The notes under the pieces: model-generated
The model's database searches: none
What the model was told of the DNA's origin: nothing
What the model saw: the letters and a program-made list of their open reading frames with translations, nothing else
Source of the DNA: an uncultured Bacteroidales bacterium
GTDB taxonomy: Bacteria; Bacteroidota; Bacteroidia; Bacteroidales; F082
Direction: 5' to 3'
DNA length: 64,000 nucleotides
Assembly: GCA_900317155.1 (NCBI GenBank)
Contig: ONFO01000005.1
Coordinates: forward strand, 56,358-120,357
Shown: positions 8,299 to 30,228 of the stretch, in pieces
Layout: the number at the start of each line of letters is the position of its first letter
How positions within the stretch are numbered: the stretch's first letter is position 1
Translations under genes and position numbers: made by a program

Positions 8299-9135
8299 TC
8301 ATGCTGCCTTAATCTTCCCTCCTTGACGCATCATGGCATCCCACCAACGGGCAGGTAAAAGAGCATGCACAATTCTGCCGATAATCGAAAAACGTCCGCG
8401 GGAATAACGTGCTTTGGGGTGACGGCTGTTGACAGCGCGACTGATAGCCTTAGTAATAACGGATGGCTTCGTCAGGAGATTGGTCTTATAGAACCAATCC
8501 ATGTTTTTGGCCCATTGTGTGCCAACTTCTTCGTAAGCCGTACCCGCCGACGATTCCTTCAGGTGTTTCGCAGCGATAAGTCCCCAGTCGGTTTTGATGG
8601 CACCTGGCTCAATCATCACCACATCGATGCCTAAGGGGGTCGTCTCCATACGCAAAGCATCGCTAAAAGCTTCCACGGAATACTTGGTTACATTGTACCA
8701 GCCGCCCATATAAAACGTCATCTTGCCAGCGATGGACGAGGTGTTGATGATGCGGCCGCTTTTCTGTTTGCGCATATAAGGCAGCACCAACTGGGTCAGA
8801 CGCGCCAAGCCGAACACATTCACCTCCAACTGCCGACGCGCCTCGGCCAGAGGAACCGTCTCGATGGCACCGAAAAAACCATAGCCCGCGTTGTTGACCA
8901 AAACATCAATACGTCCTTCCGCTTGGACAACGGCCTCAACGCCTTGCCGCATCGAATCCTCATCGGTGACATCCATCCTAATAACCTGCACACCGTCAAC
9001 CTTCAAAGGCTCCATCAACTCCATCCTGCGAGCGGCTGCATACACACGATGTCCTTGTCGAGCTAAGGTTTGTGCAGCGTCAAAACCAATACCACTGCTG
9101 GCACCAGTAATAAGAATTACCTTTTTAGTCCTCAT
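8299..9135 (-). CDS. SDR family NAD(P)-dependent oxidoreductase
   Basis: A 278-residue classical short-chain dehydrogenase/reductase. The cofactor motif TGASSGIG is at residues 10-17, NNAG at 81-84, catalytic Ser near 133, and the Tyr-x-x-x-Lys pair YNVTK at 147-151. The open frame begins 16 codons further upstream, but the ATG at 9135 (MRTKKVILITGASSG) fits the family and stands directly behind a promoter whose -7 box would fall inside the longer version. The C-terminal part (ARYSRGRFSIIGRIVHALLP) is that of oxidoreductases acting on lipophilic substrates, but the substrate cannot be read from sequence. Confidence 0.88.
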   Translation of the reverse strand: MRTKKVILITGASSGIGFDAAQTLARQGHRVYAAARRMELMEPLKVDGVQVIRMDVTDEDSMRQGVEAVVQAEGRIDVLVNNAGYGFFGAIETVPLAEARRQLEVNVFGLARLTQLVLPYMRKQKSGRIINTSSIAGKMTFYMGGWYNVTKYSVEAFSDALRMETTPLGIDVVMIEPGAIKTDWGLIAAKHLKESSAGTAYEEVGTQWAKNMDWFYKTNLLTKPSVITKAISRAVNSRHPKARYSRGRFSIIGRIVHALLPARWWDAMMRQGGKIKAA

Positions 9136-9143
9136 AATGCTTG

Positions 9144-9175
9144 CAAAATTACAAATTCCAAAGGTAATCGCCAAA
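9144..9175 (-). promoter_or_regulatory. promoter of the SDR gene
   Basis: The minus strand has TAATTTTG (9151-9144) and TTTG (9175-9172) with a 20-bp spacer, 8 bp upstream of the ATG at 9135. It is divergent from the thioesterase promoter. Confidence 0.7.
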
Positions 9176-9193
9176 GGATTCATGTTTTTTCAC

Positions 9194-9201
9194 TAATTTT
9201 G
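9194..9201 (+). promoter_or_regulatory. -7 box of the thioesterase-exporter unit
   Basis: TAATTTTG is a perfect -7 match 27 bp before the ATG at 9229. No clear -33 element was found. Confidence 0.6.
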
Positions 9202-9228
9202 CAGCTTCTTTTTCTCAATGTTTTTTTA

Positions 9229-9633
9229 ATGAACGTTTATAAACACGAAGTAAAATACTACGAATGCGACCGCATGGGTGTAACGCACCATTCCAACTAC
9301 ATCCGTTTCATGGAAGAGGCGCGCGTTGACTGGCTCGACCAATTAGGTTTCGGCTTCGAGAAGATTGAGGCGGATAATGTTTTCTCCCCAGTCATCTCGA
9401 TTTCATGCGAATACAAACATCCGACCACCTTTAAGGATATTATCGATATTGAAGTGAATATCAGCAAGATGACCGAAATGAAATTTGACTTCACCTACAC
9501 AATGCGGGTGGAAGGCAAGATTGTATGCCTTGGGCACAGTTCACATTGCTTCATCGAAAACGGCCGTCCCGTAGCCATCTCCAAACGTCTCCCCGAGTTT
9601 TACAATTCATTGAAAGAAAGACTTTCAGAATAA
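9229..9633 (+). CDS. hotdog-fold acyl-CoA/acyl-ACP thioesterase (YbgC/FadM-like)
   Basis: A 134-residue thioesterase that would release an acyl chain from CoA or ACP. The sequence has the 4-hydroxybenzoyl-CoA-thioesterase signature YYECDRMGVTHHSNYIRFMEEARVDWL, including the catalytic Asp in CDRMG and the helix ending in EEAR. Length is typical of YbgC/FadM proteins. The open frame starts further upstream, but that part contains the promoter; the ATG at 9229 (MNVYKHEVKYYE) is the family start. It is followed after 9 bp by an MMPL exporter, a pairing known from aryl-polyene and related lipid clusters. Confidence 0.88.
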   Translation: MNVYKHEVKYYECDRMGVTHHSNYIRFMEEARVDWLDQLGFGFEKIEADNVFSPVISISCEYKHPTTFKDIIDIEVNISKMTEMKFDFTYTMRVEGKIVCLGHSSHCFIENGRPVAISKRLPEFYNSLKERLSE

Positions 9634-9642: not shown

Positions 9643-12117
9643 ATGCACAAGATATTTGTTCCCATATACAACTTTTTCAAAGGCCACAAAATGCTGATGT
9701 ACCTCATTATGGGTATCTCAACTGTGGTTTTTATCGTTTACGGACTGAAGCTCCACTTTGAGGAAGACATCACAAGACTCCTACCCTCTTCAAGTGTTGA
9801 GAGCCAATTGGCCTTCAGTTCCATCCAACTCAAGGACAAGATTTACATTCAGGTGACCTCTGCAGACGAGCGGCTATCCACCGACGTCCTTGCCGAGAGA
9901 GCCGATGAATTCATCGAGTTGCTCTATGAAAAAGACTCATCGAACCATTTCATCTCCAATGTGTTATACAAACTTGAGCCAGAGGTGGCCATCAACGCCT
10001 TGGATTTCGTGTTGGAGCATATTCCCTCGTTTATCGACACCTCGGCATATCACGACTTCGAGAAAGCACTTGAGCCAGAAGCCATAGAGAAACAGATGTG
10101 GGTCAACTACGAACAGATGATGGAAGATGAGACGGGCGACCTCACGCAAGCCATTATGTACGACCCGCTCAACTTGCGCAATGTGGTGCTCGGCGATGTA
10201 CTGCAAAGTGCCGTCGGCAACTTCAACATCATCGATGGACAGCTCTTCTGCCCCGACAGTACTGCGGCTATGGCCTTCCTTGCTCCTGCCTTCCGTTCGT
10301 TGGACTCGAAAGCCTCCACCCAATTCTCCCGTATGCTTTCACACGCAAGAAAAGAGTTTGAGGCCACGCATCCCGACGTTAAGGTTTACACTCACGGCGA
10401 CCCCATCGGTAGTGTGTCGAATGCTGGCCGTATTCGCACCGACCTTGTGATTACAGTAGGCATCTCATTGGTTTTGATACTACTGCTTATCGGCTTGTGT
10501 TTCAGAAGCTTTCCATTCATCTGGAAACTCCTGTTGCCCATCCTTTACGGAACCGCTTTCTCTTTAGCGTGCATCTATTGGATTAAAGGAGGCATGTCGC
10601 TCATGGCCTTGGGATTGGGCGCCATTGTGTTGGGTGTCGCCATCAGCTACACCCTTCATGTGCTCATCCACCATTTCTTTGTCGGCGACCCTGAAAAACT
10701 GCTGAGGGACGAGTCCACACCCGTGTTTTTGGGCTGCATCACCACAGTGGGTGCTTTCTGTAGCCTGCTCTTCACCGACAGCGACCTGCTCCGTGACTTC
10801 GGCTTGTTCGCTTCCTTCGCCCTGTTGGGCAGCACGCTGTTCGCCCTTATCTTCTTGCCGCATTTTCTGCCCTCCATCAAGGCCGACAGCCATGGCAAGA
10901 CTTTCCGCCGCATTTCACGCATCAACAACTTGCCTTTCGACAAAAAGAAATGGTTTTTGGTGCTGATAACGGTCATCGTGGTGATAGGCATCCTTTTCTC
11001 GCCCAAGGTGAAATTCGACAGCGACCTTCGCAACCTCGACTACAACTCACCTGATGAAGTGGCAGCCGAAGGTCTCTACAACGAAAAGAACAACGACGGT
11101 TTCTTCCACTTGTATTTTGCCACCGTCTCCACCGACATTGACGAAGCTTTGGAAGCCGACAAGTCTTTGATGCGCAGTCTTGATACCCTTTCTCAGAAAG
11201 GCCTCGTTCACAGCTACACTGGCTTCATTCCCAAACTGTTTGTGACCCAATCCGACCAGGAACAACGCATTGCCGCATGGAACAACTTCTGGACTGAGGA
11301 AAGGAAGGCTTATGCCATTGCACAAGTCGACAAAGGGGCACATAACTTCGGCCTTGACCCGATGATGTTTTACGATTTCAAGGAGTTGCTGAATGCTGAT
11401 TTCGAGGCGGCTTCGCTGTTGGAAAGCGGTGTGGTGCCTGCCAATTTACTCGGCAACTTCATCGAGTGCAATGCCGACAACCAATACATGGTCTTCACCG
11501 ATGTTTCCATGCTCTTCGACGAAAAGGACATCGTTACTGATATCTTGGTTACCAACCCGAAGACCTTTGTGCTGGAGCCGTTCTACTACTGCAAGAGCAT
11601 GGTGGAGGTCATCAACGACGACTTCAACATCGCAGTGTGGATTTCCTCATTGTTCGTGCTGTTGATTCTGTTGGTCTCGTTCCGAAACATCATCACCGCC
11701 CTGTTGTCATTCATTCCCATGGTACTCAGCTGGTTCATGGTTCAGGGCTACATGGCCATCATCGGCTTGGAGTTCAACCTCATCAACATCATCATTTCCA
11801 CCTTCATCTTCGGTGTGGGCGTCGACTACAGTATCTTCATCACCGAAGGTCTGCTCAAACAAGCAAGGACGGGCGACAGCGATGTGCTCACCTGGCACAA
11901 GGTGGCTATCTTCTTCTCAGCAATCATTTTGGTCATTGTGGTGACCTCGCTGTTGTTTGCAGTGCATCCCGCCATCCGATCCATCGGTCTCAGCACCCTC
12001 ATCGGGATGGCCTCAACGATAATGATTTCCTACGCCCTTCAGCCCTTTGCCTTCTGGCAGCTGATGAAGTGGCCTTGGTATAAGAAGAGCGTAATGAAGA
12101 AGGCTCTGAAGAAATGA
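9643..12117 (+). CDS. MMPL/RND-type lipid exporter
   Basis: An 824-residue inner-membrane transporter of the MMPL branch of the RND superfamily. It shows the duplicated RND plan: a transmembrane helix at about 17-37, a large periplasmic loop to about 265, a helix bundle at about 266-410, a second lone helix near 427-445, a second periplasmic loop, and a final bundle at about 660-810. The acidic motif FGVGVDYSIFITEG in the second bundle is the proton-relay region of MMPL/SSD proteins; the first bundle has GVAISYTLHVLIHH at the same place. Such proteins move lipids or lipid-linked products toward the outer membrane. Coupling to the thioesterase suggests an acyl-derived cargo, which is inference. 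Confidence 0.85.
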   Translation: MHKIFVPIYNFFKGHKMLMYLIMGISTVVFIVYGLKLHFEEDITRLLPSSSVESQLAFSSIQLKDKIYIQVTSADERLSTDVLAERADEFIELLYEKDSSNHFISNVLYKLEPEVAINALDFVLEHIPSFIDTSAYHDFEKALEPEAIEKQMWVNYEQMMEDETGDLTQAIMYDPLNLRNVVLGDVLQSAVGNFNIIDGQLFCPDSTAAMAFLAPAFRSLDSKASTQFSRMLSHARKEFEATHPDVKVYTHGDPIGSVSNAGRIRTDLVITVGISLVLILLLIGLCFRSFPFIWKLLLPILYGTAFSLACIYWIKGGMSLMALGLGAIVLGVAISYTLHVLIHHFFVGDPEKLLRDESTPVFLGCITTVGAFCSLLFTDSDLLRDFGLFASFALLGSTLFALIFLPHFLPSIKADSHGKTFRRISRINNLPFDKKKWFLVLITVIVVIGILFSPKVKFDSDLRNLDYNSPDEVAAEGLYNEKNNDGFFHLYFATVSTDIDEALEADKSLMRSLDTLSQKGLVHSYTGFIPKLFVTQSDQEQRIAAWNNFWTEERKAYAIAQVDKGAHNFGLDPMMFYDFKELLNADFEAASLLESGVVPANLLGNFIECNADNQYMVFTDVSMLFDEKDIVTDILVTNPKTFVLEPFYYCKSMVEVINDDFNIAVWISSLFVLLILLVSFRNIITALLSFIPMVLSWFMVQGYMAIIGLEFNLINIIISTFIFGVGVDYSIFITEGLLKQARTGDSDVLTWHKVAIFFSAIILVIVVTSLLFAVHPAIRSIGLSTLIGMASTIMISYALQPFAFWQLMKWPWYKKSVMKKALKK

Positions 12118-12578: not shown

Positions 12579-12600
12579 CTGCTCACGTAATCGAATAGCG

Positions 12601-12690: not shown

Positions 12691-12708
12691 CCCAAAATAA
12701 GCAAAACC

Positions 12709-14918: not shown

Positions 14919-14933
14919 GAGCATCGACCAAAT

Positions 14934-15155: not shown

Positions 15156-15272
15156 AACTTGGGAAAAAGGTGAGTTTGGGGCAAAAATTATAGTAATCTA
15201 TCGATGGCGAGAAGAAATTAGGTCTCAAACAAAAGGAATTCGCCATGTCGTCCCATTAACATCGTCTATTAT

Positions 15273-17282: not shown

Positions 17283-17368
17283 AACACAATGATTTTAAAA
17301 TTACATTTTTACGTTTTCAAGTGTAACATAAGTGCCTATTTCAAAATAGTTTAGTATACAAATCTTAA

Positions 17369-19369: not shown

Positions 19370-19385
19370 GGTGTGTTTTTGTTAA

Positions 19386-19787: not shown

Positions 19788-19828
19788 TTTGTAATTCTTT
19801 TGATATGACATTTGTTTATATTTATTGC

Positions 19829-20245
19829 TTATTTGGTTTTCTCTAACTTAAACAATCCAGTTTTATGTCCGTCATTTCCCATGATAGACAAATTTCCTTT
19901 CTTGTCGATTAGGAACACTTCGCCTTTATGAGCACCGATAACAGCACAATCGCCCCCGTCTTCCCAAGAGGTTTCGTACTCATAATCTTCAGAGGATCTA
20001 ACTGTAGCAGAGCCGTCTTTTCTAAGTACAAACTTCCATGGACTTTGTTCGTAGGTACCAACCCATTGTCTGGAAACACTTTGGCTCGAGGAACCGCTAT
20101 TATCACCTGAAGAACCGCATCCGATGCAAGACCTAAACGACACAAAAAACCATGCGACAACAACCCCAACATAGATTAATATTTTAATGAAAGAAGGGCC
20201 ACCTTTTTGTTCATTGTTTGTTTCGTTGTTCTCTGAATTTACCAT
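19829..20245 (-). CDS. small membrane-anchored lipocalin-like protein
   Basis: A 138-residue protein with a polar start, one membrane helix at about 19-40 (FIKILIYVGVVVAWFFVSFRSC), a serine/glycine linker, and an outer beta-rich domain starting RQWVGTYEQSPWKFVLRKDGS. The V-G-T-Y start matches the neighbours in this operon. The cysteines at the end of the helix (SCIGCGSSG) do not form a normal lipobox position. It lies between two lipoprotein genes on the same strand. Function unknown. Confidence 0.6.
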   Translation of the reverse strand: MVNSENNETNNEQKGGPSFIKILIYVGVVVAWFFVSFRSCIGCGSSGDNSGSSSQSVSRQWVGTYEQSPWKFVLRKDGSATVRSSEDYEYETSWEDGGDCAVIGAHKGEVFLIDKKGNLSIMGNDGHKTGLFKLEKTK

Positions 20246-20351
20246 ATTACTTTGTATGTTATGTTTTCAATACCATTCTACTAGTTAACTCTTATTTGAC
20301 GATGTTGCTCGTTTGGCCTATTAGTTTTTGGTTCTAATATGATTATTGGTT

Positions 20352-20684
20352 TTAACGCCTTTTGCAGGGAATGCCGTTTCTATATGCGTCAAAATCGTCA
20401 TTAGAACTATAAACCATCTTATTCTTGACATCAATAAGGGCTATTCCTTTAATATATAATTGCGGCCTGTCAGAAACATACTTATAGTAGCTGTATGATT
20501 CATTTGTCTGTTCGCCATCCTCGCCACGCCAAATGCAAGGTCCCATCTCTTTGTTAGAATTGATGATTATTGTTTGAGTGTAACCGTTTTCGGCCACCCA
20601 TGTGTAAGTCCCTTTGATGTTAGTACATGAGACAAAACAACAAAGGCTAATGAATAAAATCGTGATTTTTACCAATTTCTTCAT
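20352..20684 (-). CDS. small lipocalin-like lipoprotein (first gene of operon)
   Basis: A 110-residue lipoprotein: MKKLVKITILFISLCCFVSC, then TNIKGTYTWVAENGYTQ, a G-T-Y strand, and the end DDFDAYRNGIPCKRR. The RNGIP ending is shared with the lipoprotein at 19386-19787. It is the first gene behind a well-formed promoter at 20780-20810, and four more genes on the same strand follow. Function unknown. Confidence 0.65.
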   Translation of the reverse strand: MKKLVKITILFISLCCFVSCTNIKGTYTWVAENGYTQTIIINSNKEMGPCIWRGEDGEQTNESYSYYKYVSDRPQLYIKGIALIDVKNKMVYSSNDDFDAYRNGIPCKRR

Positions 20685-20779
20685 AATTACTTATTTTAAA
20701 AGCGTACATATTGATTTGATTACATTCTTAATTACATATAGCATGGTTTTTTCTTTTGCCAGTGACAAATTTCATTCTG

Positions 20780-20810
20780 CAAAACTACAACAATTTTCCA
20801 TACAATCAAA
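20780..20810 (-). promoter_or_regulatory. promoter of the envelope operon
   Basis: The minus strand has TTTG (20810-20807), a 19-bp spacer and TAGTTTTG (20787-20780), a consensus pair. The first start codon (20684) is about 95 bp downstream, leaving a long leader. Confidence 0.7.
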
Positions 20811-20835
20811 TTAATTATTTGATAATCAATATTTT

Positions 20836-20905
20836 AATTATCCAAATTGGATACAAATATTATATCCAAAATGGATAATTCTTGTTAGAAATGGATGAAG
20901 TGGAT
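20836..20905. promoter_or_regulatory. paired dyads and half-sites upstream of the envelope operon
   Basis: Two 18-bp arms (20836-20853 and 20863-20880) form an imperfect inverted repeat around a 9-nt loop. Each arm holds its own dyad ATCCA-N3-TGGAT (20840-20852 and 20864-20876, centres 24 bp apart). Two further TGGAT half-sites lie at 20888-20905. All are upstream of the -33 box, a position typical of activator sites. Confidence 0.55.
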
Positions 20906-21034
20906 AGATTTTAAGAAACAAACGCTTTGCATTGGCTCCGCCGAAATCCTCGATTCAGCGTAGCTAATCTTCGATTTCAACGTAGTTAAATCTTATAAAA
21001 ATCCACCAAAATCCTTTTTCGGGTCATCCTTTTT

Positions 21035-21217
21035 ATGGCTGGTATGAAGTGTCCATTGAAAATTGCGCTCAGGGAACATTTTGGTCATTTGAAAATTGCG
21101 CTCAGGGAACATTTTGGTCATTCAAAAATTGCGCTCAGGGAACATTTTTTTGATTTTTCTTGCATAATTCAAAGATTTACAGTTTTTTTGCAGAAATTTA
21201 AAAAATCAGAAATATGA
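21035..21217 (+). other. possible leader ORF built of 11-residue repeats
   Basis: A 60-codon frame from an ATG at 21035 encodes KIALREHFGH three times because the underlying 33-bp DNA repeats are a multiple of three. Its TGA (21215-21217) overlaps the ATG of the following ATPase pseudogene (21214) as ATGA, as in coupled genes. The rest of the frame is AT-rich and not protein-like. It may be a leader peptide or just a by-product of the repeats. Confidence 0.3.
21058..21156 (+). repeat. three 33-bp direct repeats
   Basis: Units start at 21058, 21091 and 21124, with a conserved core AAATTGCGCTCAGGGAACAT. Each core is bounded by AAAAT and ATTTT. The last unit diverges after the core. Period 33 bp puts the cores on the same DNA face, iteron-like. 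They lie just before the ATPase pseudogene. Confidence 0.85.
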
Positions 21218-21562
21218 TTGAGCATATTTTCAAGCGCAAGGCATATCAAAAAATGTTGCAATGGAAACAAGAATCACATGGAGAAACGGCTCTCCTAATT
21301 GAGGGCGCGAGACGTGTAGGCAAGTCAACTCTTGTACGCCAATTTGCAAAAAATGAGTATGATTGATTTCCTGTTGTCAGACAAGACGAAAATATGTCCT
21401 ATCGAAGTGAAGGCAGAAGGCTACAGCACACATCGCTCGCTTGACGAATTTTGCACGAAGTTCTCGTCACGAGTGGGCAACCGCTACCTTGTTAATACCA
21501 AAGACCTTCGCAAAGATGGCAACACTATATTAGTGCCGATATATATGGCGGGTGCGCTATGA
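21214..21562 (+). pseudogene. AAA ATPase (DUF4143 family), internal deletion remnant
   Basis: The first 50 codons from ATG 21214 encode the start of a Bacteroidales-type ATPase: MIEHIFKRKAYQKMLQWKQ followed by the Walker A motif EGARRVGKSTLVRQFAKNEYD, then a stop at 21364-21366. The next frame, from about 21360 to 21562, encodes the far C-terminal end of the same family: IDFLLSDKTKICPIEVKAEGY, LDEFCTKFSSRVGNRYLVNTKDLRKDG, VPIYMAG. Intact members are around 400-450 residues, so roughly 300 residues between the two parts are gone. The join falls near GATTGATTTC, and the family has similar Ile-Asp-Phe codons on both sides, so deletion between short repeats is plausible. The gene is dead. Confidence 0.8.
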
Positions 21563-21627
21563 GTCGAATGACACATTCATGTCTAAAATGACAAGAATGC
21601 CACTTAAAATCGTTTCAAAAAAAACCG

Positions 21628-21635
21628 TATTTTTG
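21628..21635 (+). promoter_or_regulatory. -7 box of the fatty-acid operon
   Basis: TATTTTTG is a perfect -7 match 23 bp before the ATG at 21659. It lies just before a TTG codon at 21644 that would extend the frame by five codons. Confidence 0.65.
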
Positions 21636-21658
21636 CAGACTTTTTGAAAAACATTTGC

Positions 21659-23296
21659 ATGCAGAAAACCACTGAACTTGACAGCCTAACTTTCGCCGCA
21701 ATGCTGCGCCAAGGTGCGGTGCAACTGGGCAGGGACAAAAAGGTCATCAACGACCTCAACGTCTTCCCTATCCCCGACGGCGACACGGGCGACAACATGC
21801 TGATGACCCTCAAGGCGGGGTGTACTGCCTTGAACGACCAACTCGGTACCCTTTCCGAAATAGCCTCAGCCGCTTCATCAGGGATGTTACTCGGCGCAAG
21901 AGGCAACTCCGGCGTCATCCTTTCGCGTATCTTTGCAGGCTTGGCCAAAGGTCTTCAAGGTGTGATAGAAGCAGACACGAAAGCCTTCGCCAAAGCCATG
22001 CAATCCGCTGTGGAAGAGGCTTATAAATCTGTTCCCGTTCCCGTTGAAGGTACTATCATCACCGTGCTGCGCGAAGGCGTGGCCAATGCTGATGCAAGTT
22101 CGGACTTGAACCATTATTTTGAGACTTTATTGGAGGCCATGCAAGTTTCCCTTGACCATACGCCCGAACTGCTTCAAGTGTTGAAAGATGCAGGTGTGGT
22201 CGATAGCGGCGGCGCTGGACTAGTGAGCATCTTCCGAGGCATGAACGATGCTTTAAACGGCATCATTTCGGATGAGGAAATCGCCCCCTCTCAAGCCTCG
22301 GCCCCCACAGTGGAGCTCGACAAATTCACCGAAGACAGCACCTTGGAGTTTGGCTACTGCACCGAGTTCCTGCTCCGACTGATGCGCTCCAAAGTCGACT
22401 TGGACACCTTTGATGAAAACGTAATCTTCGATTATCTAAATAAAGTGGGCGAGTCGGTGGTGGCTTTCCGCGAAGGCTCGATTGTTAAGGTGCATGTCCA
22501 TACCTTCACGCCAGGAGTGATTCTCAACGAGATGCAGAAATACGGTGAGTTCCTGACCATCAAGATTGAGAACATGGCACTGCAACATCACCAATCGACC
22601 AACCAAAACAACGCCTCGTTCAAGCTGCCTCCCAAGCCTTACGGCATCGTGACGGTAGCCTCGGGCGAAGGTCTTATCAACGCCTTCCGCGAGTTTGGCA
22701 CCGATGAGGTGATTGCGGGCGGTCAGACAATGAACCCCTCAACGCAAGATTTCCTCGATGCTTTTGCCCGCATCAACGCGCAACACATCCTCGTGTTCCC
22801 CAACAACAAGAACATCAAGATGGCCGCCGACCAGGCTGCCGAACTCTATAAAGACGCCGACATCCATGTGCTTCCGTCGACCACCATCGGTGAAGGCTAC
22901 TATGGCATCGGCTCCATCGACCGCGACAATCCTAACGTTGAGGAGGTCATCGCGAGCGTCACGGAAACAATGCAATCTGTGGTGACAGGTATGGTCTCCA
23001 CTGCCATCCGCGATGCCGAAGGCGAGCAAGTGAGCGTCCATACGGGTGATTATGTGGGCTACTGCGGCAAGCAAATCCTTTCCGACAGCCGCGACCGCGA
23101 AACGGCAGCCCAAGCCCTCATTGAACGTCTTGGTGCAGCTTCTCGCGACGTGATGCTAATCTTTTATGGCGAGGACGTCCCTACAGAAGAAGCGGAACGC
23201 CTCGTCGCCAACCTGCAAACCCAATACAAGAACCTTGAAATTATGTTGAACAACGGCGCACAGCCGGTTTACGATTATATAATTGTTTGTATATGA
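21659..23296 (+). CDS. fakA: fatty acid kinase ATP-binding subunit FakA-like (DAK2 domain)
   Basis: A 545-residue protein with an N-terminal DhaL/DAK2 nucleotide domain and a C-terminal FakA-type domain. The Mg-ATP signature PDGDTGDN is at residues 39-46, preceded by NDLNVFPI; LLGARGNSGVILSRIFAG and DSGGAGLVSIFRG are further family motifs. The last 90 residues (DYVGYCGKQILSD ... FYGEDVPTEEAERLVANL) are the family's C-terminal fold. FakA phosphorylates a fatty acid held by a DegV/FakB protein to acyl-phosphate. Such a protein is encoded next, and plsX, which uses acyl-phosphate, is two genes further on. ATG 21659 was chosen over an upstream TTG. Length is normal. Confidence 0.88.
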   Translation: MQKTTELDSLTFAAMLRQGAVQLGRDKKVINDLNVFPIPDGDTGDNMLMTLKAGCTALNDQLGTLSEIASAASSGMLLGARGNSGVILSRIFAGLAKGLQGVIEADTKAFAKAMQSAVEEAYKSVPVPVEGTIITVLREGVANADASSDLNHYFETLLEAMQVSLDHTPELLQVLKDAGVVDSGGAGLVSIFRGMNDALNGIISDEEIAPSQASAPTVELDKFTEDSTLEFGYCTEFLLRLMRSKVDLDTFDENVIFDYLNKVGESVVAFREGSIVKVHVHTFTPGVILNEMQKYGEFLTIKIENMALQHHQSTNQNNASFKLPPKPYGIVTVASGEGLINAFREFGTDEVIAGGQTMNPSTQDFLDAFARINAQHILVFPNNKNIKMAADQAAELYKDADIHVLPSTTIGEGYYGIGSIDRDNPNVEEVIASVTETMQSVVTGMVSTAIRDAEGEQVSVHTGDYVGYCGKQILSDSRDRETAAQALIERLGAASRDVMLIFYGEDVPTEEAERLVANLQTQYKNLEIMLNNGAQPVYDYIIVCI

Positions 23297-23319
23297 ATGA
23301 ATTTTCGACAATGACTTGT

Positions 23320-23371
23320 GACAATGACTATGACCGCTCCAACGTAAGTGAAAGCTGTCATAGTCATAGTC
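23320..23371. repeat. 15-bp inverted repeat between fakA and fakB
   Basis: GACAATGACTATGAC (23320-23334) faces GTCATAGTCATAGTC (23357-23371) with one mismatch and a 22-nt loop. A third GTCATAGTC follows at 23376-23384. There is no T-run, so it is not an ordinary terminator. Confidence 0.65.
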
Positions 23372-23401
23372 ACTGGTCATAGTCCAATAAAAAAACACAA
23401 A

Positions 23402-24271
23402 ATGCTGACTTTTTTTAGCGACACCGATTGCGACATCACTCCCAAGGAGTGCACCGCCTATGGCATCAAACTCATTAGCATGCCTTATACCGTGGGTGAT
23501 CAAGTGATTTACCCCTACATCGACTTCGATGAGTTCGATTCCCACAAATTCTACGACATGCTTCGCGCCGGAATCATGCCGACCACCAGTGCCATGAGCG
23601 AAGAGGCTTACATCCAGTATTTTGAGCCTGAATTCGCAGCGGGAAACGACATCCTTTATGCGCATTTCTCTTCGGGCACCTCCAACACCTTTTCCATCAT
23701 GAATCAAGCGGTGGAGAAACTGAAAGCGAAGTATCCCGAAAGAAAGTTCTATACCGTTGACACATTGGGCATCAGTGCCTTGTGTTACAATGTTGTCCTT
23801 GAAGTGGCCGATCTCCTGAAAGCTGGCAAGACTGCCGAGGAAATCGTGGAATGGGCTAAAATAGAGGTGCCGAAGTTCCCTATGTATTTCTTCGCTGATG
23901 ACTTGAAGTTCTTCCGTCGCAGCGGTCGCGTGAGCGGATTGGCGGCTACCATGGGTGGCTTCATCGGCATCCGTCCCATCATCTACCTCAACGACGAGGG
24001 CAAGATGGTGAGCATTGGCAAGGAAACAGGACGCGCTAAGGCCATCGCGCGTTTGGTGAAATACGTTGAGGAACTCGGCGAGGACGTGAAAGCCCACCGC
24101 GTGGTCATCGGCCACAGCGACTGCCCCGACATCGCCGCTGAGGCAGAACGACAGCTTAAAGAGAAGTTCGGTCAAGACCTAAACGTCATCACCACCGTCG
24201 TCAACCCGACCATCGGAAGCCACTGCGGTCCCAACGGTTTGGGCATCTGCTTCCATGCTAAACACAGGTGA
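23402..24271 (+). CDS. fakB: DegV family fatty-acid-binding protein (FakB-like)
   Basis: A 289-residue DegV protein that holds one fatty acid and presents its carboxylate to FakA. Motifs: SDTDCDI at the start, MPTTSAMS at residues 59-66, SSGTSNTFS, RRSGRVSGLAATMGGFIGIRPI, and GSHCGPNGLGICF near the end. The open frame starts 18 codons earlier inside the intergenic inverted repeat, so the ATG at 23402 (MLTFFSDTDCD) was chosen. The adjacency to fakA supports the FakB assignment over other DegV roles. Fatty-acid preference cannot be told from the sequence. Confidence 0.85.
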   Translation: MLTFFSDTDCDITPKECTAYGIKLISMPYTVGDQVIYPYIDFDEFDSHKFYDMLRAGIMPTTSAMSEEAYIQYFEPEFAAGNDILYAHFSSGTSNTFSIMNQAVEKLKAKYPERKFYTVDTLGISALCYNVVLEVADLLKAGKTAEEIVEWAKIEVPKFPMYFFADDLKFFRRSGRVSGLAATMGGFIGIRPIIYLNDEGKMVSIGKETGRAKAIARLVKYVEELGEDVKAHRVVIGHSDCPDIAAEAERQLKEKFGQDLNVITTVVNPTIGSHCGPNGLGICFHAKHR

Positions 24272-24313
24272 TTTTTTGATTTAAAATTCAAAATTTAAAA
24301 TTCAAAGATTCTT

Positions 24314-25432
24314 TTGGTGATAACAATAACTAAAGTAGCGACAAAAAAGCAACAGAAGGAATTCCTTGATTTTCCTTTGAAGCTCTACAAGGGCAACCCT
24401 TACTTCACGCCGCCTTTGTATATGGACGAGAAGAAGATATTCCGTAAGGACTTCGTCTACAACGACATGTGCGAAGCCGTCTATTTCAACGCCTATAAAG
24501 ACGGAGTGATGGCGGGACGCATCTCGGGTATCATCCAACGTGCCGCCAACGAGAAAACAGGCAAGAAACAAGTGCGTTTCACCCGTTTCGATGTCGTTGA
24601 GGATGAAGAAGTGGCAAAAGAACTCTTCAAGACCTTGGAAGAATGGGCGCTTAAAAAAGGCATGAACGAGGTGGTAGGCCCTTTGAGTTTCTCCGACCTC
24701 GAACGCGAAGGCCTTTTAATCGATGGCTTCGACTATCCCGCCACTTTCGAGGAGACTTACAACTATCCTTATTATCAGACCTTTATCGAGAACTATGGTT
24801 ATCAGAAAGATGTCGACTGGACGGGCAGCCGCATCCGCATTCCCAAGGACTATGATGGCGAGGTCGACAAACTGGCTGCTTTCGTGATGAAACGCTACAA
24901 CCTGCATCTCGGCACAGCACGCAACACCAACGAATTCCTCAAGAAATACGCCGACGGCATCTTTGAGTTGCTCGATAAATCCTATGAACTGCTTTACGGC
25001 ACCGTGCCTTTCACCGAGGGCATGAAAAAGATGATGATCGACAACTTCCGTCTGGTCATCGATGTGAAGAACGTGGCCGTCATCCTCGACGAGAACGAGA
25101 GGATGATTTGCTTCGGACTGGCTTTCCCAGCCATCGCCGATGCCGTGCGGCCTTCGGGCGGAAGACTGACACCCACTACCTTAATCAAGTTGCTCAAAGC
25201 CTTGAAAAAGCCCAATGTCATCGACCTCTGCCTCATCGGTGTCGACCCCGAGTGGCTCAACCGCGGCGTGAGCATCATCGTCTCTGCGGGTTTGATGAAT
25301 ATGCTGAAGAATGTGGAATACGCTGAGACCAACATGAACCTGGAAGACAATTACGCCATACAGAATCAATGGAAACGCTTTGACGAACAGAAGATCAAGC
25401 GTCACCGTTGCTATGTAAAAAAACTTCTTTGA
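24314..25432 (+). CDS. GNAT-like acyltransferase (YghO-like), copy A
   Basis: A 372-residue protein of the large GNAT-like family seen in Bacteroidota as N-acetyltransferase or YghO-like. It starts with TTG at 24314; there is no ATG in frame nearby, and this start aligns exactly with that of its paralogue at 27322-28437. Shared blocks are FPLKLYK, NEVVGPLSFSDLEREGLLIDGFD (the other copy has RGPWGFTDMDKEGLLVDGFE), YNYPYY, GYQKDVDWT, NLEDNYAIQ. It sits between fakB and plsX with a 2-bp gap to plsX, so it is part of the lipid operon. A plausible job is transfer of an acyl chain from acyl-ACP to an amine or hydroxyl. Substrate is unknown. Confidence 0.7.
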   Translation: MVITITKVATKKQQKEFLDFPLKLYKGNPYFTPPLYMDEKKIFRKDFVYNDMCEAVYFNAYKDGVMAGRISGIIQRAANEKTGKKQVRFTRFDVVEDEEVAKELFKTLEEWALKKGMNEVVGPLSFSDLEREGLLIDGFDYPATFEETYNYPYYQTFIENYGYQKDVDWTGSRIRIPKDYDGEVDKLAAFVMKRYNLHLGTARNTNEFLKKYADGIFELLDKSYELLYGTVPFTEGMKKMMIDNFRLVIDVKNVAVILDENERMICFGLAFPAIADAVRPSGGRLTPTTLIKLLKALKKPNVIDLCLIGVDPEWLNRGVSIIVSAGLMNMLKNVEYAETNMNLEDNYAIQNQWKRFDEQKIKRHRCYVKKLL

Positions 25433-25434
25433 CT

Positions 25435-26454
25435 ATGATAAAAATCCTGATAGACTGTTTCGGCGGCGACCATAGCCCCGAGGCCAATGTAGACGGTGCC
25501 TTGGCTGCTTTGGCCAAAATGCCCGACCTGTATCTCATCCTTACGGGCGACGAGGCTACGCTCCAGAACTGCCTGAAAGGCAAGACCTACGACAATTCGC
25601 GTCTCGAGATTGTCCACGCGTCCGAGGTTATCGGCTGCGAGGAACGCCCCATCGACGTCATCCGTTTGAAGAAGGAAAGCTCGATGATCAAGGCTGTCCG
25701 TATGTTACGCGACTGCGACGACATTAATGCCATGGTGAGCATCGGTTCCACGGGCGCGCTCGTTGCCGCTGCCTTGACCCGCATCGGCCGTGTGAAGGGG
25801 GTCATCCGTCCTGCCTTCTGCCCTATCCTGCCCACCATGAATGGAGGTATTGTCGGTATCTGCGACAGCGGAGCCAACGTAGAGGTCACACCTGAACATC
25901 TGAGGCAGTTCGCCATCATGTCGAGCCTGTACATGGAGAAGGTCTACAATATTGAAAAACCGCGCATTGCCTTGCTCAATGTGGGAAAAGAAGCGGAAAA
26001 AGGCGATGAAATCAGACAAAAGGCATACTTTTTGCTGAGTGAGACCCCCGAAATCCATTTTGTGGGCAACATGGAGAGCCGCGACTTGCTTTCGGGCAAC
26101 TACGATGTGGTGGTTTGTGACGGTTTCTCAGGCAATGTTTTGGTGAAGACCACTGAAGGCACAGCCTTGGAACTGCTGAAGAAGTTGAAGAAAGACATCT
26201 ATTCGAGACCCATATATAAATTAGGTGCGCTCTTGATGAAGCGGATGTTTATGGAGGAGAAGGAGTTCATGAACTATCAGAACTACGGCGGCAGCGTATT
26301 GTTGGGCACCTCGAAGACGGTGGTGAAAGGCCATGGATCAAGCAAGGCAACGGCAGTGGAGAAATGCATCGAGCAAGCCTACAAGATGGAAGTCAGTTCC
26401 TTGTCATCCAAGATGGAAGAGATTATTATGAGGTATGAACATTATGAATATTAA
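25435..26454 (+). CDS. plsX: phosphate acyltransferase PlsX
   Basis: A 339-residue enzyme that interconverts acyl-ACP and acyl-phosphate, the first step of phosphatidic acid synthesis with PlsY. The N-terminus MIKILIDCFGGDHSPEANV is the family start, and VSIGSTGALVAAALTRIGRVKGVIRPAF and VVVCDGFSGNVLVKTTEGTA are family hallmarks. The usual D-A-M-G-G-D is here D-C-F-G-G-D. The open frame reaches 27 bp further upstream into copy A of the acyltransferase; the ATG at 25435 fits the family. In an operon with fakA and fakB it gives two ways into acyl-phosphate and back to acyl-ACP. No rpmF-fabH neighbour, as in many bacteria, is present here. Confidence 0.93.
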   Translation: MIKILIDCFGGDHSPEANVDGALAALAKMPDLYLILTGDEATLQNCLKGKTYDNSRLEIVHASEVIGCEERPIDVIRLKKESSMIKAVRMLRDCDDINAMVSIGSTGALVAAALTRIGRVKGVIRPAFCPILPTMNGGIVGICDSGANVEVTPEHLRQFAIMSSLYMEKVYNIEKPRIALLNVGKEAEKGDEIRQKAYFLLSETPEIHFVGNMESRDLLSGNYDVVVCDGFSGNVLVKTTEGTALELLKKLKKDIYSRPIYKLGALLMKRMFMEEKEFMNYQNYGGSVLLGTSKTVVKGHGSSKATAVEKCIEQAYKMEVSSLSSKMEEIIMRYEHYEY

Positions 26455-26465
26455 GCATTAAGCCA

Positions 26466-26517
26466 TTAGCCGTTAGCTATTAGCTCAGTTGCTACCATGC
26501 TAATAGCTAACGGCTAA
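26466..26517. repeat. perfect 19-bp inverted repeat between plsX and ACP gene
   Basis: TTAGCCGTTAGCTATTAGC (26466-26484) and its exact reverse complement (26499-26517) are separated by 14 nt. The arms are built from repeated TTAGC words. No T-run follows. It could form a stable RNA hairpin within the operon or be a dispersed palindrome. Confidence 0.85.
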
Positions 26518-26579
26518 AAGCTAAAAGCCAAGCAAGCTAATCTTGAATTTTGAATTTTAAATCTTTGAATTTGAATAAT

Positions 26580-26804
26580 ATGTACGAAGTAGTAAAAGCC
26601 ACCTTAGCGCGTCAATTGCGCATCGACCCGGAGCGGGTTACACTGGATGCCCAAATCAAGAGAGACCTCGGCGCCGATTCCGTCGACATCCTCCAGTTGC
26701 TCATGCGTCTTGAAGACGACTATGGCATTGTCATCCCCGACCAGGCTTTGGCCAAATTTGAAACCGTCAACGATGTAGTCACTTATTTAGATAATTTAAA
26801 ATAA
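26580..26804 (+). CDS. acyl carrier protein, copy A
   Basis: A 74-residue acyl carrier protein. The phosphopantetheine serine is Ser34 in RDLGADSVDILQLLMRLEDDYG, and the four-helix pattern ends DVVTYLDNLK. It differs clearly from a housekeeping AcpP (which has GADSLDTVEL) and so is likely a dedicated carrier for this pathway. ATG 26580 (MYEVVKATL) was chosen over a frame start ten codons upstream in AT-rich sequence. Its stop overlaps the start of the LolA-like gene by one base (TAATG), so the two are coupled. Confidence 0.88.
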   Translation: MYEVVKATLARQLRIDPERVTLDAQIKRDLGADSVDILQLLMRLEDDYGIVIPDQALAKFETVNDVVTYLDNLK

Positions 26805-27325
26805 TGAAACACATTACATTAATCATCGCAATGCTGTTCTCCTTAACGGCATTTGCGCAACAGACTTTCGACACCGAATTCACCCAAACCAAGGTAATGA
26901 AGGTATCGGGCAAGACCACCGAAAAAGCCGGTCACCTCACTTTCGACGGCGTCAACCAACTCAGCATGATTTACTCCATGCCAGAAGGTGATTACTTCAA
27001 GGTGGAAGGCAACATAGTGAAAATCAACATGGATGGCAAGAAGGTTGAGCTTGATTCCGAGAAAGTGAAGATGGTCGGGCTGCAACGTTCCACTTTGTTG
27101 AACTGCCTGTCAGGCAACTGGGAACAAGCCGCCACCGACAACAACGCCGAGTTGATTGTCACCGAGGAGAAAGGACTGAAAAACATCTCCATCGTCGCCA
27201 AAGGCAAGGTGCCGAAAGGTGGTTACAAATCTGTCGAATTGACCTATCGTGTGTCAGATAACACTTTGGTCAAGATGGTGCTTGAAGAAGCCATCGGCAT
27301 CATCAACACTTACGAAATCCATTAA
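26804..27325 (+). CDS. LolA-like periplasmic lipid or lipoprotein carrier
   Basis: A 173-residue exported protein with signal peptide MKHITLIIAMLFSLTAFA. The rest follows the LolA/LolB half-barrel pattern: FDTEFTQTKVMKVSGKTTEKAGHLTFDGVNQLSMIYSMPEGDYFKVEGNIV in outline, then a conserved hinge and an ISIVAKGKVPKGGYKSVELTYR strand pair. Proteins of this kind in lipid and aryl-polyene clusters carry lipid products across the periplasm. It is coupled to an ACP gene and its stop codon overlaps that of the convergent acyltransferase copy B by two bases. Confidence 0.75.
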   Translation: MKHITLIIAMLFSLTAFAQQTFDTEFTQTKVMKVSGKTTEKAGHLTFDGVNQLSMIYSMPEGDYFKVEGNIVKINMDGKKVELDSEKVKMVGLQRSTLLNCLSGNWEQAATDNNAELIVTEEKGLKNISIVAKGKVPKGGYKSVELTYRVSDNTLVKMVLEEAIGIINTYEIH

Positions 27326-28437
27326 ATGCTCTTCTTGTAGGCCCTGCGGCGCATGAAGGGTTCGGTCTTGTAGTCGCCAAACAGCGATTGCACCTTGTAG
27401 TTTTCCTCCAATTGGGGATTCATGATGATGGTGTCGATACAGCGCTTGATGCAGTTTTCATGCAGGTATTTAAACATCAGCACGGGTATTCCACACTGCT
27501 GATACTCAGGCATGACACCCATAATCAAAGCCTCAAGCGTGTCGTTTTTCTTCAAGGCTTTCAAAATGTTCAGGAAACCGAAGGGGAACAAACGCCCGTT
27601 GGATTTCTTCACAGCCTTTGAGAGCGAAGGCACACAGAAGAGGAAGCCTACTGGCTTGTCTTGGTCATTGACGGCAACTGCCACGAAATCCTTGTCCAAA
27701 ATAGGAACGTAAGTCTTCAGATAAGCCTCTATCTGCTTGTCAGTCAAAGGTGAGAAGCCGTGCAAAGGAGCAAAAGCTTCATTGTACATGTGGAATATCT
27801 CCATTCCATAGCGGTTGGCCATGTCTTTCATGCTTCGAGGATTGACCACATGGACTTTAAACCTTTCCTCAATCAGGTTGGTGAACCGGAACATGGAGGG
27901 CAATTCCTTGCTCACCAAGAGGGTTCTTTGCGTCCAGTCCACATCTTTCTTGAAACCGAGTCGCTCCAACATCGTGCCATAATAGGGGAAATTGTAGAGA
28001 CAGGTGAAGGGACTCAGATGCTCGAAACCGTCAACCAGCAGACCTTCCTTGTCCATGTCGGTGAAGCCCCACGGGCCTCTCATCTCGGTGCGACCACGTT
28101 GTTTACCCCATTCGGCAACAGTGTTGATGAGTGCGCGAAGCACTTCTTCGTCTTCGATGAAATCAAGCCAACCGAAACGGACGAGGTGCTGCTCGTCGTC
28201 AGCTTTATGGTTGATGATGGCCGCAACGCGACCCACTATCTCATCGCCACGATAAGCTAAGAAGCAATCGGCTTCGCAGAAGTCGTAGGCGCCGTTCTTC
28301 TCTGGGTTGAACGTGTCGTATTCATCGCCTTCCAAGGCCGGCACCCAGTTCTCACAGTCTTTGTATAGTTTGAGGGGGAAAGTCACAAACTTTTTCAGCT
28401 GCTTGTGACTTTCCACCTTTATAATTTGGATTGACAT
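27322..28437 (-). CDS. GNAT-like acyltransferase (YghO-like), copy B
   Basis: A 371-residue paralogue of the protein at 24314-25432, aligned from its first residue. Shared or similar blocks include FPLKLYKDCENWVP, RTEMRGPWGFTDMDKEGLLVDGFE, YNFPYYGTMLERLGFKKDVDWT, ALKKNDTLEALIMGVMPEYQ and NPQLEENYKVQSLF. It is the last gene of a minus-strand unit ligase - ACP - acyltransferase, 3 bp behind the ACP gene. The likely role is to receive the acyl chain from that ACP and transfer it to an amine or hydroxyl acceptor. The acceptor is unknown. The general scheme resembles the acyl-ACP ligase, ACP and ceramide synthase set described in Caulobacter, but no serine palmitoyltransferase is in the window. 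Confidence 0.7.
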   Translation of the reverse strand: MSIQIIKVESHKQLKKFVTFPLKLYKDCENWVPALEGDEYDTFNPEKNGAYDFCEADCFLAYRGDEIVGRVAAIINHKADDEQHLVRFGWLDFIEDEEVLRALINTVAEWGKQRGRTEMRGPWGFTDMDKEGLLVDGFEHLSPFTCLYNFPYYGTMLERLGFKKDVDWTQRTLLVSKELPSMFRFTNLIEERFKVHVVNPRSMKDMANRYGMEIFHMYNEAFAPLHGFSPLTDKQIEAYLKTYVPILDKDFVAVAVNDQDKPVGFLFCVPSLSKAVKKSNGRLFPFGFLNILKALKKNDTLEALIMGVMPEYQQCGIPVLMFKYLHENCIKRCIDTIIMNPQLEENYKVQSLFGDYKTEPFMRRRAYKKSI

Positions 28438-28440
28438 AGG

Positions 28441-28683
28441 CTAACGCGTTGTGTTTGAACTGATATAGTCGATCACCTCTCCTACCGTAGTAAACTTCGG
28501 GTTGCCATCAAACTTGAAACCGAACTTGTTCTCGATAGCCAGGCTCAGCAGCAAAATAGTCAGCGAGTCGAGCCCAACATCACGCACGAGTTGTGATTCC
28601 TCTGTGACCTTCGCCAAATCCATTGAAGGCTTGATGAGTATCAAGATTTCCTTCAGTTCGTTCAAAATGGTTTCTCTTTCCAT
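28441..28683 (-). CDS. acyl carrier protein, copy B
   Basis: An 80-residue acyl carrier protein with the attachment serine at Ser40 in RDVGLDSLTILLLSLAIENKFG. The helix pattern and the end TVGEVIDYISS are normal for ACPs. The open frame extends 50 codons upstream into the ligase gene, but the ATG at 28683 (MERETILNEL) gives the family length. It starts 8 bp after the ligase stop and is followed 3 bp later by acyltransferase copy B, so the three act as one unit. Confidence 0.88.
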   Translation of the reverse strand: MERETILNELKEILILIKPSMDLAKVTEESQLVRDVGLDSLTILLLSLAIENKFGFKFDGNPKFTTVGEVIDYISSNTTR

Positions 28684-28691
28684 GGCGTAAG

Positions 28692-30185
28692 TTAATTGCG
28701 TGAGACTTTCATGGCACCCGTACGCTTGAAGTCTTCCTTGCGCACAGTGATTTTGCCGACCTGGTGGGTTGTGGGCAACGTGGCATTGACTTTTCCGACA
28801 AGGTCCTTGAAATAGGCTTCCACCACTTCCCAAGGCTCATTGCCAAACTCTTCCATGCGCGGAAGAATCTCGATGGCAATCACCTGACGTCCATCCACTT
28901 CGTCTTCCTTGACGAGGCAGTCACGCAGTTTGCTATCCTTGTAGAACGGCTCTTCGATGCTTTCAGGGCTGACATTCTCGCCATTGGAAAGAATGATGAG
29001 GTTCTTGATACGGCCTACGATGTACATATAGCCTTCGTCGTCGAAACGAACGAGGTCACCCGTCTTCACCCAACCATCGGGAGTGAGGGTCTCAGCGGTC
29101 TTTTCGGGGTCACCATAGTAGCCGAGGAACACATTGTCGCCACGATACCACAACTCGCCGTCGACCACCTTGGCTTCTTGCTCGGGATACAGCTTACCGA
29201 CTGAGGTGGGTTTGGCCACGACATCGATGTTACCCGTGGTAAGGTTGGCACCTTCTGTCATGCCATAACCTGCAAACAGGCTGATACCCAATTTATCGAA
29301 CTCGCCGATGAGTTTCGGAGGCACATTGGCTGCACCAGAGATGATGAACTTCAGGTTCCCGCCGAGGAAAGGCGCGCCATACATCTTGACGAGACCCAGC
29401 AAGATTTCGCAAATGCCTGGAACGGCAACGAGGCAAGTCGGCTTGATCATCGGGAACTTGGTGATGGTCTCCTTGGTGTTGGCGGCTGCATACCATGCTC
29501 CACCTTCGAACAACACAGACAAAGTGCTTCTAACCAATCCAAACACATGGCTGAGCGGCAACACACATGCGTAACGATGGCAGCCCAACTGATGTCCAGG
29601 AGCGTAAACGCCGTTCAAAGCGCCACGCATCAAAGCCCTGTGAGGCAGAACGGCACCCTTGGGAGCGCCCGTCGTGCCACCCGTGAAGAAAATGGCGGCT
29701 GGATCGTTCTTGTCGACCGTAGCGACAGGAGCCGTATGGTCGGCACAATCCGTGATAGCAATCACTTTGCAAGGCGCATCTTTCACGGCATCCATAAAGT
29801 CTTTGCCAGCGGCAAGCACCTTCACACCAAACTTCATGCAGCATCCAACGATGGCCTGAGGGGGCAACTGCGAAGGCAGATTGATGGCCACGAAGCCCGC
29901 CGATGTGACGGCAAGAAACATTTCCACGGCTTCCACAGTGGTATTGTCGATGATGGCTACCTTGTCGCCTTTTTGCAAGCCCATGTCGCAGAGCAAGGCG
30001 CGTTTGCGTGCCACAATATCGCATACTTGACCGTAGTTCAATGTATTAACGGTATCGGATAAGCAAGGCAGGTCGGTCCATTTCTGCTCAATCCATGTTA
30101 CAAATTCGGGAAGGGTTGGGATGTACTTCAACTGCGCAAGTTCTTCGGCAGGAAGCATACTGGGAAAATAAGTGTCATTCTTCAT
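28692..30185 (-). CDS. AMP-dependent acyl-ACP/acyl-CoA ligase
   Basis: A 497-residue ANL-superfamily adenylating enzyme that activates a carboxylic acid with ATP and passes it to a thiol. The phosphate loop TGGTTGAPKG is at 168-177, then FAGYGMTEGANLTTG, the ribose-binding GDLVRFDDEGYMYIVGR, and the catalytic lysine at 493 in the end FKRTGAMKVSRN. An ACP gene follows 8 bp later, so the acceptor is more likely that ACP than CoA. Size and layout fit fatty-acid or aryl-acid ligases; chain specificity is not readable. Its own promoter is at 30221-30228. Confidence 0.85.
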   Translation of the reverse strand: MKNDTYFPSMLPAEELAQLKYIPTLPEFVTWIEQKWTDLPCLSDTVNTLNYGQVCDIVARKRALLCDMGLQKGDKVAIIDNTTVEAVEMFLAVTSAGFVAINLPSQLPPQAIVGCCMKFGVKVLAAGKDFMDAVKDAPCKVIAITDCADHTAPVATVDKNDPAAIFFTGGTTGAPKGAVLPHRALMRGALNGVYAPGHQLGCHRYACVLPLSHVFGLVRSTLSVLFEGGAWYAAANTKETITKFPMIKPTCLVAVPGICEILLGLVKMYGAPFLGGNLKFIISGAANVPPKLIGEFDKLGISLFAGYGMTEGANLTTGNIDVVAKPTSVGKLYPEQEAKVVDGELWYRGDNVFLGYYGDPEKTAETLTPDGWVKTGDLVRFDDEGYMYIVGRIKNLIILSNGENVSPESIEEPFYKDSKLRDCLVKEDEVDGRQVIAIEILPRMEEFGNEPWEVVEAYFKDLVGKVNATLPTTHQVGKITVRKEDFKRTGAMKVSRN

Positions 30186-30220
30186 ATTAAAAAATATTTG
30201 TCGTTTTCGAAATTAAGGCA

Positions 30221-30228
30221 CAAAGGTA
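30221..30228 (-). promoter_or_regulatory. -7 box of the ligase-ACP-acyltransferase unit
   Basis: The minus strand reads TACCTTTG, a perfect TAnnTTTG match, 35 bp upstream of the ligase ATG. No good -33 element was found. Confidence 0.6.

Follow-up and report, generated by a model that had tools for sequence, protein, structure and literature searches.

Among the described systems closest to the locus treated here are the FakAB-PlsX pathway of Gram-positive bacteria, which according to excerpts of published work supplies phospholipids, and the ceramide gene set of Caulobacter and Escherichia coli B (spt, acpR, aasR, cerR and cerS/bcerS). Genes resembling parts of both lie side by side in a stretch of 64,000 nucleotides of contig ONFO01000005.1 (assembly GCA_900317155.1) from an uncultured gut bacterium of the Bacteroidales, the whole of which we call the window. 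Nine genes form two convergent units there, arm 1 on the forward strand (FakA-FakB-GNAT1-PlsX-ACP1-LolA-like) and arm 2 on the reverse strand (LIG-ACP2-GNAT2), where ACP denotes acyl carrier protein and LIG an acyl ligase. We give an even chance to the reading that these are two lipid N-acylation modules side by side, the acceptor of arm 1 being most likely a sphingoid long-chain base. The gene content and its conservation are firm. No joining of Fak with ceramide synthesis was found among the open-licence papers listed by the literature searches, as judged by title and start of abstract. The nine genes are as follows.

21659..23296, + strand: FakA-type fatty acid kinase catalytic subunit (ATG start; alternative TTG at 21644 possible)
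23402..24271, + strand: FakB-type DegV-family protein, presumed fatty-acid binding subunit (PF02645, 188.5 bits)
24317..25432, + strand: GNAT1, member of the bacterial ceramide synthase family, a tandem-GNAT acyltransferase (starts with GTG; TTG at 24314)
25435..26454, + strand: PlsX, acyl-ACP:phosphate acyltransferase, cassette type (TIGR00182, 336.6 bits, cut-off 243.4)
26580..26804, + strand: ACP1, acyl carrier protein, DSVD serine (NF002148, 78 bits, cut-off 71)
26804..27325, + strand: LolA-like protein, apparent signal peptide by eye (PF03548, 20.5 bits, below the cut-off of 23.6)
27322..28437, - strand: GNAT2, member of the bacterial ceramide synthase family, a tandem-GNAT acyltransferase (PF00583, 22.5 bits, cut-off 20.7)
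28441..28683, - strand: ACP2, acyl carrier protein, DSL serine (PF00550, 25.1 bits, cut-off 20.8)
28692..30185, - strand: LIG, AMP-forming acyl ligase, presumed ACP2 acyl-ACP synthetase (PF00501, 184.8 bits)

An earlier note on this DNA had described these nine genes as two convergent units with stop codons overlapping at 27322-27325. All nine are open frames at the positions listed above, and the TAA of the LolA-like gene (27323-27325, + strand) does overlap the stop of GNAT2 (27322-27324, - strand). The note's picture of a locus that activates fatty acids next to two dedicated ACPs, with one acyltransferase for each, is supported, and we share its view that the Fak genes stand in an unusual setting. 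In what follows, G-numbers are genomes and L-numbers fetched loci; G000 is the window's genome, which is 96.8% complete.

By sequence kinship, GNAT1 and GNAT2 are tandem-GNAT members of the bacterial ceramide synthase (bCerS/CerS) family, with predicted N-acylation activity. In a phmmer search of a 15-protein set, YghO of E. coli B matched GNAT1 at 1e-36, GNAT2 at 4e-44 and GNAT3 at 6e-40, with 26 to 29% identity across 370 to 390 columns. The earlier note was right to call the two proteins acyltransferase-like; this kinship had escaped it. GNAT1 has a tandem GNAT fold; neither Pfam nor NCBIfam matched it at E 0.001, and a PDB sequence search with the GNAT alignment returned weak YpeA and RimI stretches only. 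In the family tree it forms its own clade (100/100), within which the Bacteroidales rows need two changes. Elsewhere in the family, two GNATs stand in tandem immediately after the gene for serine palmitoyltransferase (SPT) in L049:8007-10270 (G055).

The FakA-type, FakB-type and PlsX genes of arm 1 recall the Gram-positive pathway and have intact motifs. FakA scores 518.9 bits against TIGR03599 (cut-off 396.1), contains three Pfam domains, and by phmmer matches PDB 7w7h chain A (7e-109) along with Fatty Acid Kinase A domains. Its DGDTG, FGYCTE and HVH motifs are intact and were paired by motif, without a full alignment, with the key residues of Staphylococcus aureus FakA, which passages of PMC9136124 give as an Asp pair, Cys240, His282 and His284. 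FakB matches 25 DegV, FakB and Fak-complex chain sequences (1e-27 to 2e-5). Neither protein reaches its equivalog cut-off (417.3 of 975 bits for NF038248, FakA; 86.9 of 350 bits for NF038249, FakB1), and the pair is therefore described as FakAB-type rather than by the names of those equivalogs. PlsX matches PDB 6a1k at 1e-81, both ACPs retain the serine, and LIG has intact adenylation motifs, with no NCBIfam cut-off reached among the 25 of its 102 matches listed. Unlike the Gram-positive pathway, arm 1 adds a bCerS-family GNAT and an ACP in one run, the carriers in the window's genus have no match to PlsY, and the Bacteroidales add an exporter and a carrier.

We infer the direction of the PlsX reaction, the acyl donor, the acceptor and the export as follows. 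In arm 1, FakB would bind a free fatty acid, either scavenged or freed by a nearby thioesterase, FakA would phosphorylate the bound acid, and PlsX would transfer the acyl group from acyl-phosphate onto the dedicated ACP1. GNAT1 would then pass it to an amino group, most likely that of a sphingoid long-chain base, and an MMPL protein together with the LolA-like carrier would export the product, plausibly an N-acyl lipid of the (dihydro)ceramide type, to the outer membrane. The route from acyl-phosphate through ACP1 to GNAT1 is probable; that the acceptor of GNAT1 is a sphingoid base is about an even call. In arm 2, LIG would adenylate a free fatty acid and load ACP2, and GNAT2 would N-acylate a base made through SPT.

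Ortholog searches covered a single set of 60 genomes, of which 36, including the window's own, belong to its genus (completeness 58 to 100%). GNAT1 orthologs (at least 75% identity) occur in 12 genus genomes, with a fragment in G028; the 13 arm 1 genomes so counted include G028, where a contig end leaves a 44-residue tail of GNAT1, and G019, whose cassette is truncated by the end of its contig. GNAT2 orthologs (at least 65% identity) occur in 18. Both arms are found in 13 genus genomes, but they are adjacent and convergent in only three (G000, G012 and G028). In G010 a distance of 13 kb separates them on a single contig, and the remaining nine genomes carry them on different contigs. Arm 2 occurs without detected arm 1 (GNAT1) in 5 of the 36, among them G007, where a lone LolA gene is convergent to GNAT2, and G029, with a Dak2 gene situated at the edge of a contig. 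No case of arm 1 without arm 2 was seen among the 36. The arms are separate units, conserved independently. The earlier note had taken them for a single two-armed system, naming independent conservation of the two units as what would speak against it, and that proposal is not supported. The arms may nevertheless share physiology, because all 13 genus genomes with arm 1 also have arm 2.

It is quite likely that arm 2 is a ceramide module, its enzyme activities being predicted from sequence. SPT, assigned by score within the genus (at least 233 bits, against at most 191 for the next class), is matched in 18 of the 36 genus genomes. Seventeen of these 18 carry arm 2 and, conversely, 17 of the 18 arm 2 genomes have SPT (Fisher p 7e-8, a value that ignores shared ancestry and genome gaps). 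The mismatches are G003, with SPT only (71% complete), and G033, with arm 2 and no SPT match (100% complete). SPT lies within the stretch around arm 2 in four of 15 arm 2 loci (L053 to L067). In L061, SPT, a short-chain dehydrogenase (SDR), LIG, ACP2 and GNAT2 form one strand-wise run; in L055 and L058 a convergent SDR-SPT pair stands directly past GNAT2; and in L054 SPT is 3.7 kb away. The window itself has no SPT, and the SPT and SDR of its genome lie elsewhere, in L052. With the SDR that follows SPT, blastp (1e-4) found no match to the epimerase-type reductase of E. coli; excerpts of published work describe BT_0972 of Bacteroides thetaiotaomicron as an SDR with 3-ketosphinganine reductase activity. 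The earlier note had proposed a ligase loading free acids onto a dedicated ACP, a role that the LIG-ACP2-GNAT2 unit would fit; the tie of arm 2 to SPT it had missed. A sulfonolipid SPT in G000 was considered and rejected: the residue 30 past the pyridoxal phosphate lysine is Ala by plain offset, without alignment, the diagnostic positions being those given in passages of PMC9304779. In G029, SPT and SDR are followed by a gene for an acyl-ACP thioesterase (PF01643; L054:7314-8015).

Candidate counterparts of all members of the five-gene Caulobacter set stand in the window's genome, in arm 2 and in the SPT and SDR of L052, the activity of the ligase on ACP and the role of the SDR being predicted. 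Like that set and the one of E. coli B, arm 2 combines a ligase, an ACP and a bCerS-family acyltransferase, and SPT with a reductase-like SDR is found elsewhere in the window's genome and, in some relatives, next to arm 2. Unlike them, arm 2 has its ligase, ACP and GNAT2 in one run, to which L061 adds SPT and SDR. Passages of PMC11324152 state that bacterial cerS is always in an operon other than that of the de novo genes, and an excerpt of PMC11334938 states that in Bacteroidota the three genes do not lie near one another.

Arm 1 is the novel part of the locus. A scan of genome contigs with the GNAT1 alignment found 102 relatives, and the following figures are for the 80 loci kept, of which 53 are labelled Bacteroidales or Bacteroidia, 26 Clostridia/Bacillota or kin, and one Treponema. 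After 17 loci with insufficient flank were excluded, the order FakA-FakB-GNAT1-PlsX-ACP was present in 47 of 63; five lacked only the ACP and 11 lacked more. The earlier note had looked to the Bacteroidales for a conserved neighbourhood of nine families; the order of arm 1 is indeed conserved, yet its sharing with Clostridia had gone unnoticed. Cassette PlsX proteins form a clade (100/100) apart from other PlsX, the window's protein being 31 to 38% identical to other Bacteroidales PlsX and 38 to 44% to the other PlsX of clostridial carriers. The rows called housekeeping PlsX in this tree carry our own label, and two of the 10 clostridial ones (G070 and G074) are the sole PlsX found in their genomes. 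Rows from Bacteroidales cassettes group in a single clade (100/97) in the midst of the clostridial cassette rows. The PlsX and GNAT1 clades fit a transfer, presumably from Clostridia to Bacteroidales, with the caution that metagenome bin labels can be wrong.

For the acceptor of arm 1, SPT was surveyed in carriers from 40 of the 80 loci, namely 13 of the 53 labelled Bacteroidales or Bacteroidia and every one of the 27 whose label is Clostridia, Bacillota, kin or Treponema, with the class set at 352 bits or more (G064, partial, 269) against at most 258. SPT was found in 15 of the 27 Clostridia/Treponema-labelled carriers (one partial, G064), in 10 of the 13 Bacteroidales-labelled ones and, within the window's genus, in 12 of the 13 arm 1 carriers. 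In 26 of the 27 Clostridia/Treponema-labelled carriers GNAT1 is the only match to its family (E 0.001), and therefore the only ceramide synthase candidate of that family seen there.

Several observations weigh against a sphingoid base as acceptor and against the ceramide assignment generally. SPT was not found in 12 of the 27 Clostridia/Treponema-labelled carriers or in three of the 13 Bacteroidales-labelled ones, and G033, listed as 100% complete, carries both arms with SPT not found. Not one of the 80 cassette stretches, which reach up to 10 kb on either side, contains SPT, and FakA, GNAT1 and PlsX are absent from 38 SPT stretches of the order of G074. SPT is common in that order (39 of 151 genomes; at least 470 bits against at most 285), so that 15 of 27 is a modest 3.7-fold enrichment in odds (p=0.003), for which the background may itself hold carriers, the 27 need not belong to the order, and the Fisher test ignores ancestry and gaps. 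Proximity of SPT to arm 2 is likewise a minority pattern (4 of 15), with SPT on another contig or not found in the other 11. GNAT1 is a long separate branch of the family tree, GNAT3-type genes occur in genus genomes without an SPT-class match (G004, G005, G011 and G026), and a PF01553 (PlsC-superfamily) protein (25.0 bits, cut-off 23) takes the place of GNAT1 in G038. Salvage of sphingoid bases from outside would explain the carriers without SPT, and assembly gaps could account for some of them.

We put forward tentatively, as a possibility below even, that arm 1 is a mobile cassette for sphingolipid assembly or salvage in unrelated gut bacteria, in which bases would come from SPT, host, diet or neighbours, a fatty-acid kinase would drive N-acylation, and diderm carriers would have added an exporter and a carrier. 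Carriers without SPT would then be salvagers. Bacterial sphingolipid salvage is called an open question in passages of PMC11324152, and the arm 1 cassette is a concrete candidate for it. An N-acylation role of arm 1 would link the acyl-phosphate chemistry of phospholipid synthesis with N-acyl lipids, perhaps ceramides, in gut Bacteroidales and Clostridia. In L249, L251 and L256, from the order of G074, a DegV-family gene directly precedes SPT (three of 38 SPT stretches), a finding judged too weak.

A phospholipid route is a rather unlikely explanation of arm 1 that has some observations on its side. FakAB and PlsX, which serve phospholipids in Gram-positive bacteria, would make acyl-ACP, and GNAT1 would stand in for PlsY by acylating glycerol-3-phosphate or a lysophospholipid. 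PlsY (PF02660) had no match in G000 or in any of the genus's 12 further cassette genomes, some of them incomplete, in a search of the genus genomes, and the PlsC-superfamily protein of G038 stands between FakB and PlsX-ACP. However, the 23 genus genomes without arm 1 would need another first acyltransferase, as 20 of them also lack a PlsY match and all 23 a PlsX match. GNAT1 is moreover kin of YghO with a tandem GNAT fold, and at least two PlsX matches above cut-off occur in 13 of the 27 Clostridia/Treponema-labelled carriers (G064 partly in pieces), whose other PlsX rows fall outside the cassette clade. With no PlsY in these assemblies for acyl-phosphate to feed, the most economical role for it is transfer to ACP1 and GNAT1. 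Twelve genus genomes, every one an arm 1 carrier, yielded PlsX; the idea that it is simply the lineage's usual housekeeping gene was rejected, as it occurs in the genus only with arm 1 and in the separate cassette clade. PlsY itself is found in three genus genomes, none of them cassette carriers; in the genus genomes G001, G009 and G027 a Dak2 gene (frames of 583 to 618 aa) occurs with PlsY, and PlsX was not found. PF01553 has five matches in G000, four above cut-off. The protein of G038, at L045:744-2117, is a 458-aa acyltransferase-like protein with zinc-ribbon-like cysteines, in a cluster that is spread over two contigs, both cut inside FakB.

It is unlikely, though it fits part of the evidence, that arm 1 makes an N-acyl lipid other than ceramide, such as an amino-acid lipid, N-acyl phosphatidylethanolamine or a new class. 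The long, separate GNAT1 clade, the carriers without SPT and the lack of a physical link between the cassette and SPT are all compatible with such a product, but other members of the family adjoin SPT, and nearly all genus carriers possess it. Ordinary scavenging of fatty acids into the general acyl-ACP pool, for which Enterococcus faecalis offers a precedent in FakAB activation and conversion to acyl-ACP (PMC11586512, in excerpt), is very improbable, as GNAT1 would then be a bystander, yet it stands between FakB and PlsX across phyla and is joined by an exporter and carrier in Bacteroidales.

In the proposed reading of arm 1, the export step would draw in part on genes that lie outside the region of the earlier note. 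Three features near one another in the window are relevant.

9643..12117, + strand: MMPL-family exporter, displaced arm 1 partner (PF03176, 61.7 bits)
9070..9633, + strand: 4HBT thioesterase, start codon uncertain, possible free fatty acid source (PF13279, 58.3 bits)
8299..9183, - strand: SDR (PF00106, 164.4 bits)

Of the 38 Bacteroidales-labelled loci with FakA and 2.6 kb of sequence upstream of it, 31 have an MMPL match whose end is at most 33 nt (in one case 246 nt) from the FakA match; this was seen in none of 12 Clostridia/Treponema-labelled loci. The window's MMPL gene is 9.5 kb upstream of FakA, and its product is 73.7% identical over 820 aa to the MMPL protein that precedes FakA in L039. 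Thioesterase and SDR occur near MMPL-FakA in one other locus, L084, among 17 listed (70% and 81% identical to those of the window, respectively), which unites thioesterase, SDR, MMPL, arm 1 and arm 2 and whose contig ends within the ligase. The window's SDR is also 67% identical to the SDR beside arm 2 in L056 and 37% identical to the one after SPT in its own genome (L052).

A LolA-like gene was found after ACP1 in Bacteroidales-labelled loci only; it shares the strand of ACP1 in the window's kin, and seven others have it on the opposite strand. The sole NCBIfam match of the window's gene is LolA2_flexi (NF053544), at 50.6 bits against a cut-off of 125; its Pfam LolA score is below the gathering value (20.5 of 23.6), which the L078 ortholog exceeds (24.6), and a PDB sequence search gave chance-level rows only. 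A LolA-like carrier delivering an envelope lipid, as the earlier note had suggested, is plausible, although the MMPL exporter, thioesterase and SDR at 8299-12117 were not part of its account. In having an ACP and an acyltransferase next to LolA-like and MMPL genes, the system resembles the LolA2/MMPL export pairs of flexirubin clusters; unlike these, the window's LolA-like protein is far below the LolA2_flexi cut-off, and no ketosynthase was seen among the families scanned. Aryl polyene clusters presumably offer a similar likeness, for which a literature search returned no match. Transporters in Caulobacter are called unidentified in passages of PMC11087976, and Lpt-like candidates were proposed later (PMC11324152, in excerpt); the MMPL and LolA-like proteins are candidate exporters.

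The 9.5 kb between MMPL and FakA (12118-21643), which separate a pair contiguous in most Bacteroidales relatives, contain genes for a protein with a protein-kinase domain and for a BspA-type leucine-rich repeat protein, along with small unnamed genes. Just before FakA, at 21200-21562, are frames that by eye resemble remnants of an AAA ATPase. Within arm 1, the gaps between fakA and fakB (23304-23387) and between plsX and ACP1 (26455-26528) contain long imperfect inverted repeats with 35-nt and 30-nt arms, respectively. The fakA and fakB matches of L081 are about 4 nt apart, and the first repeat is therefore not conserved in that locus.

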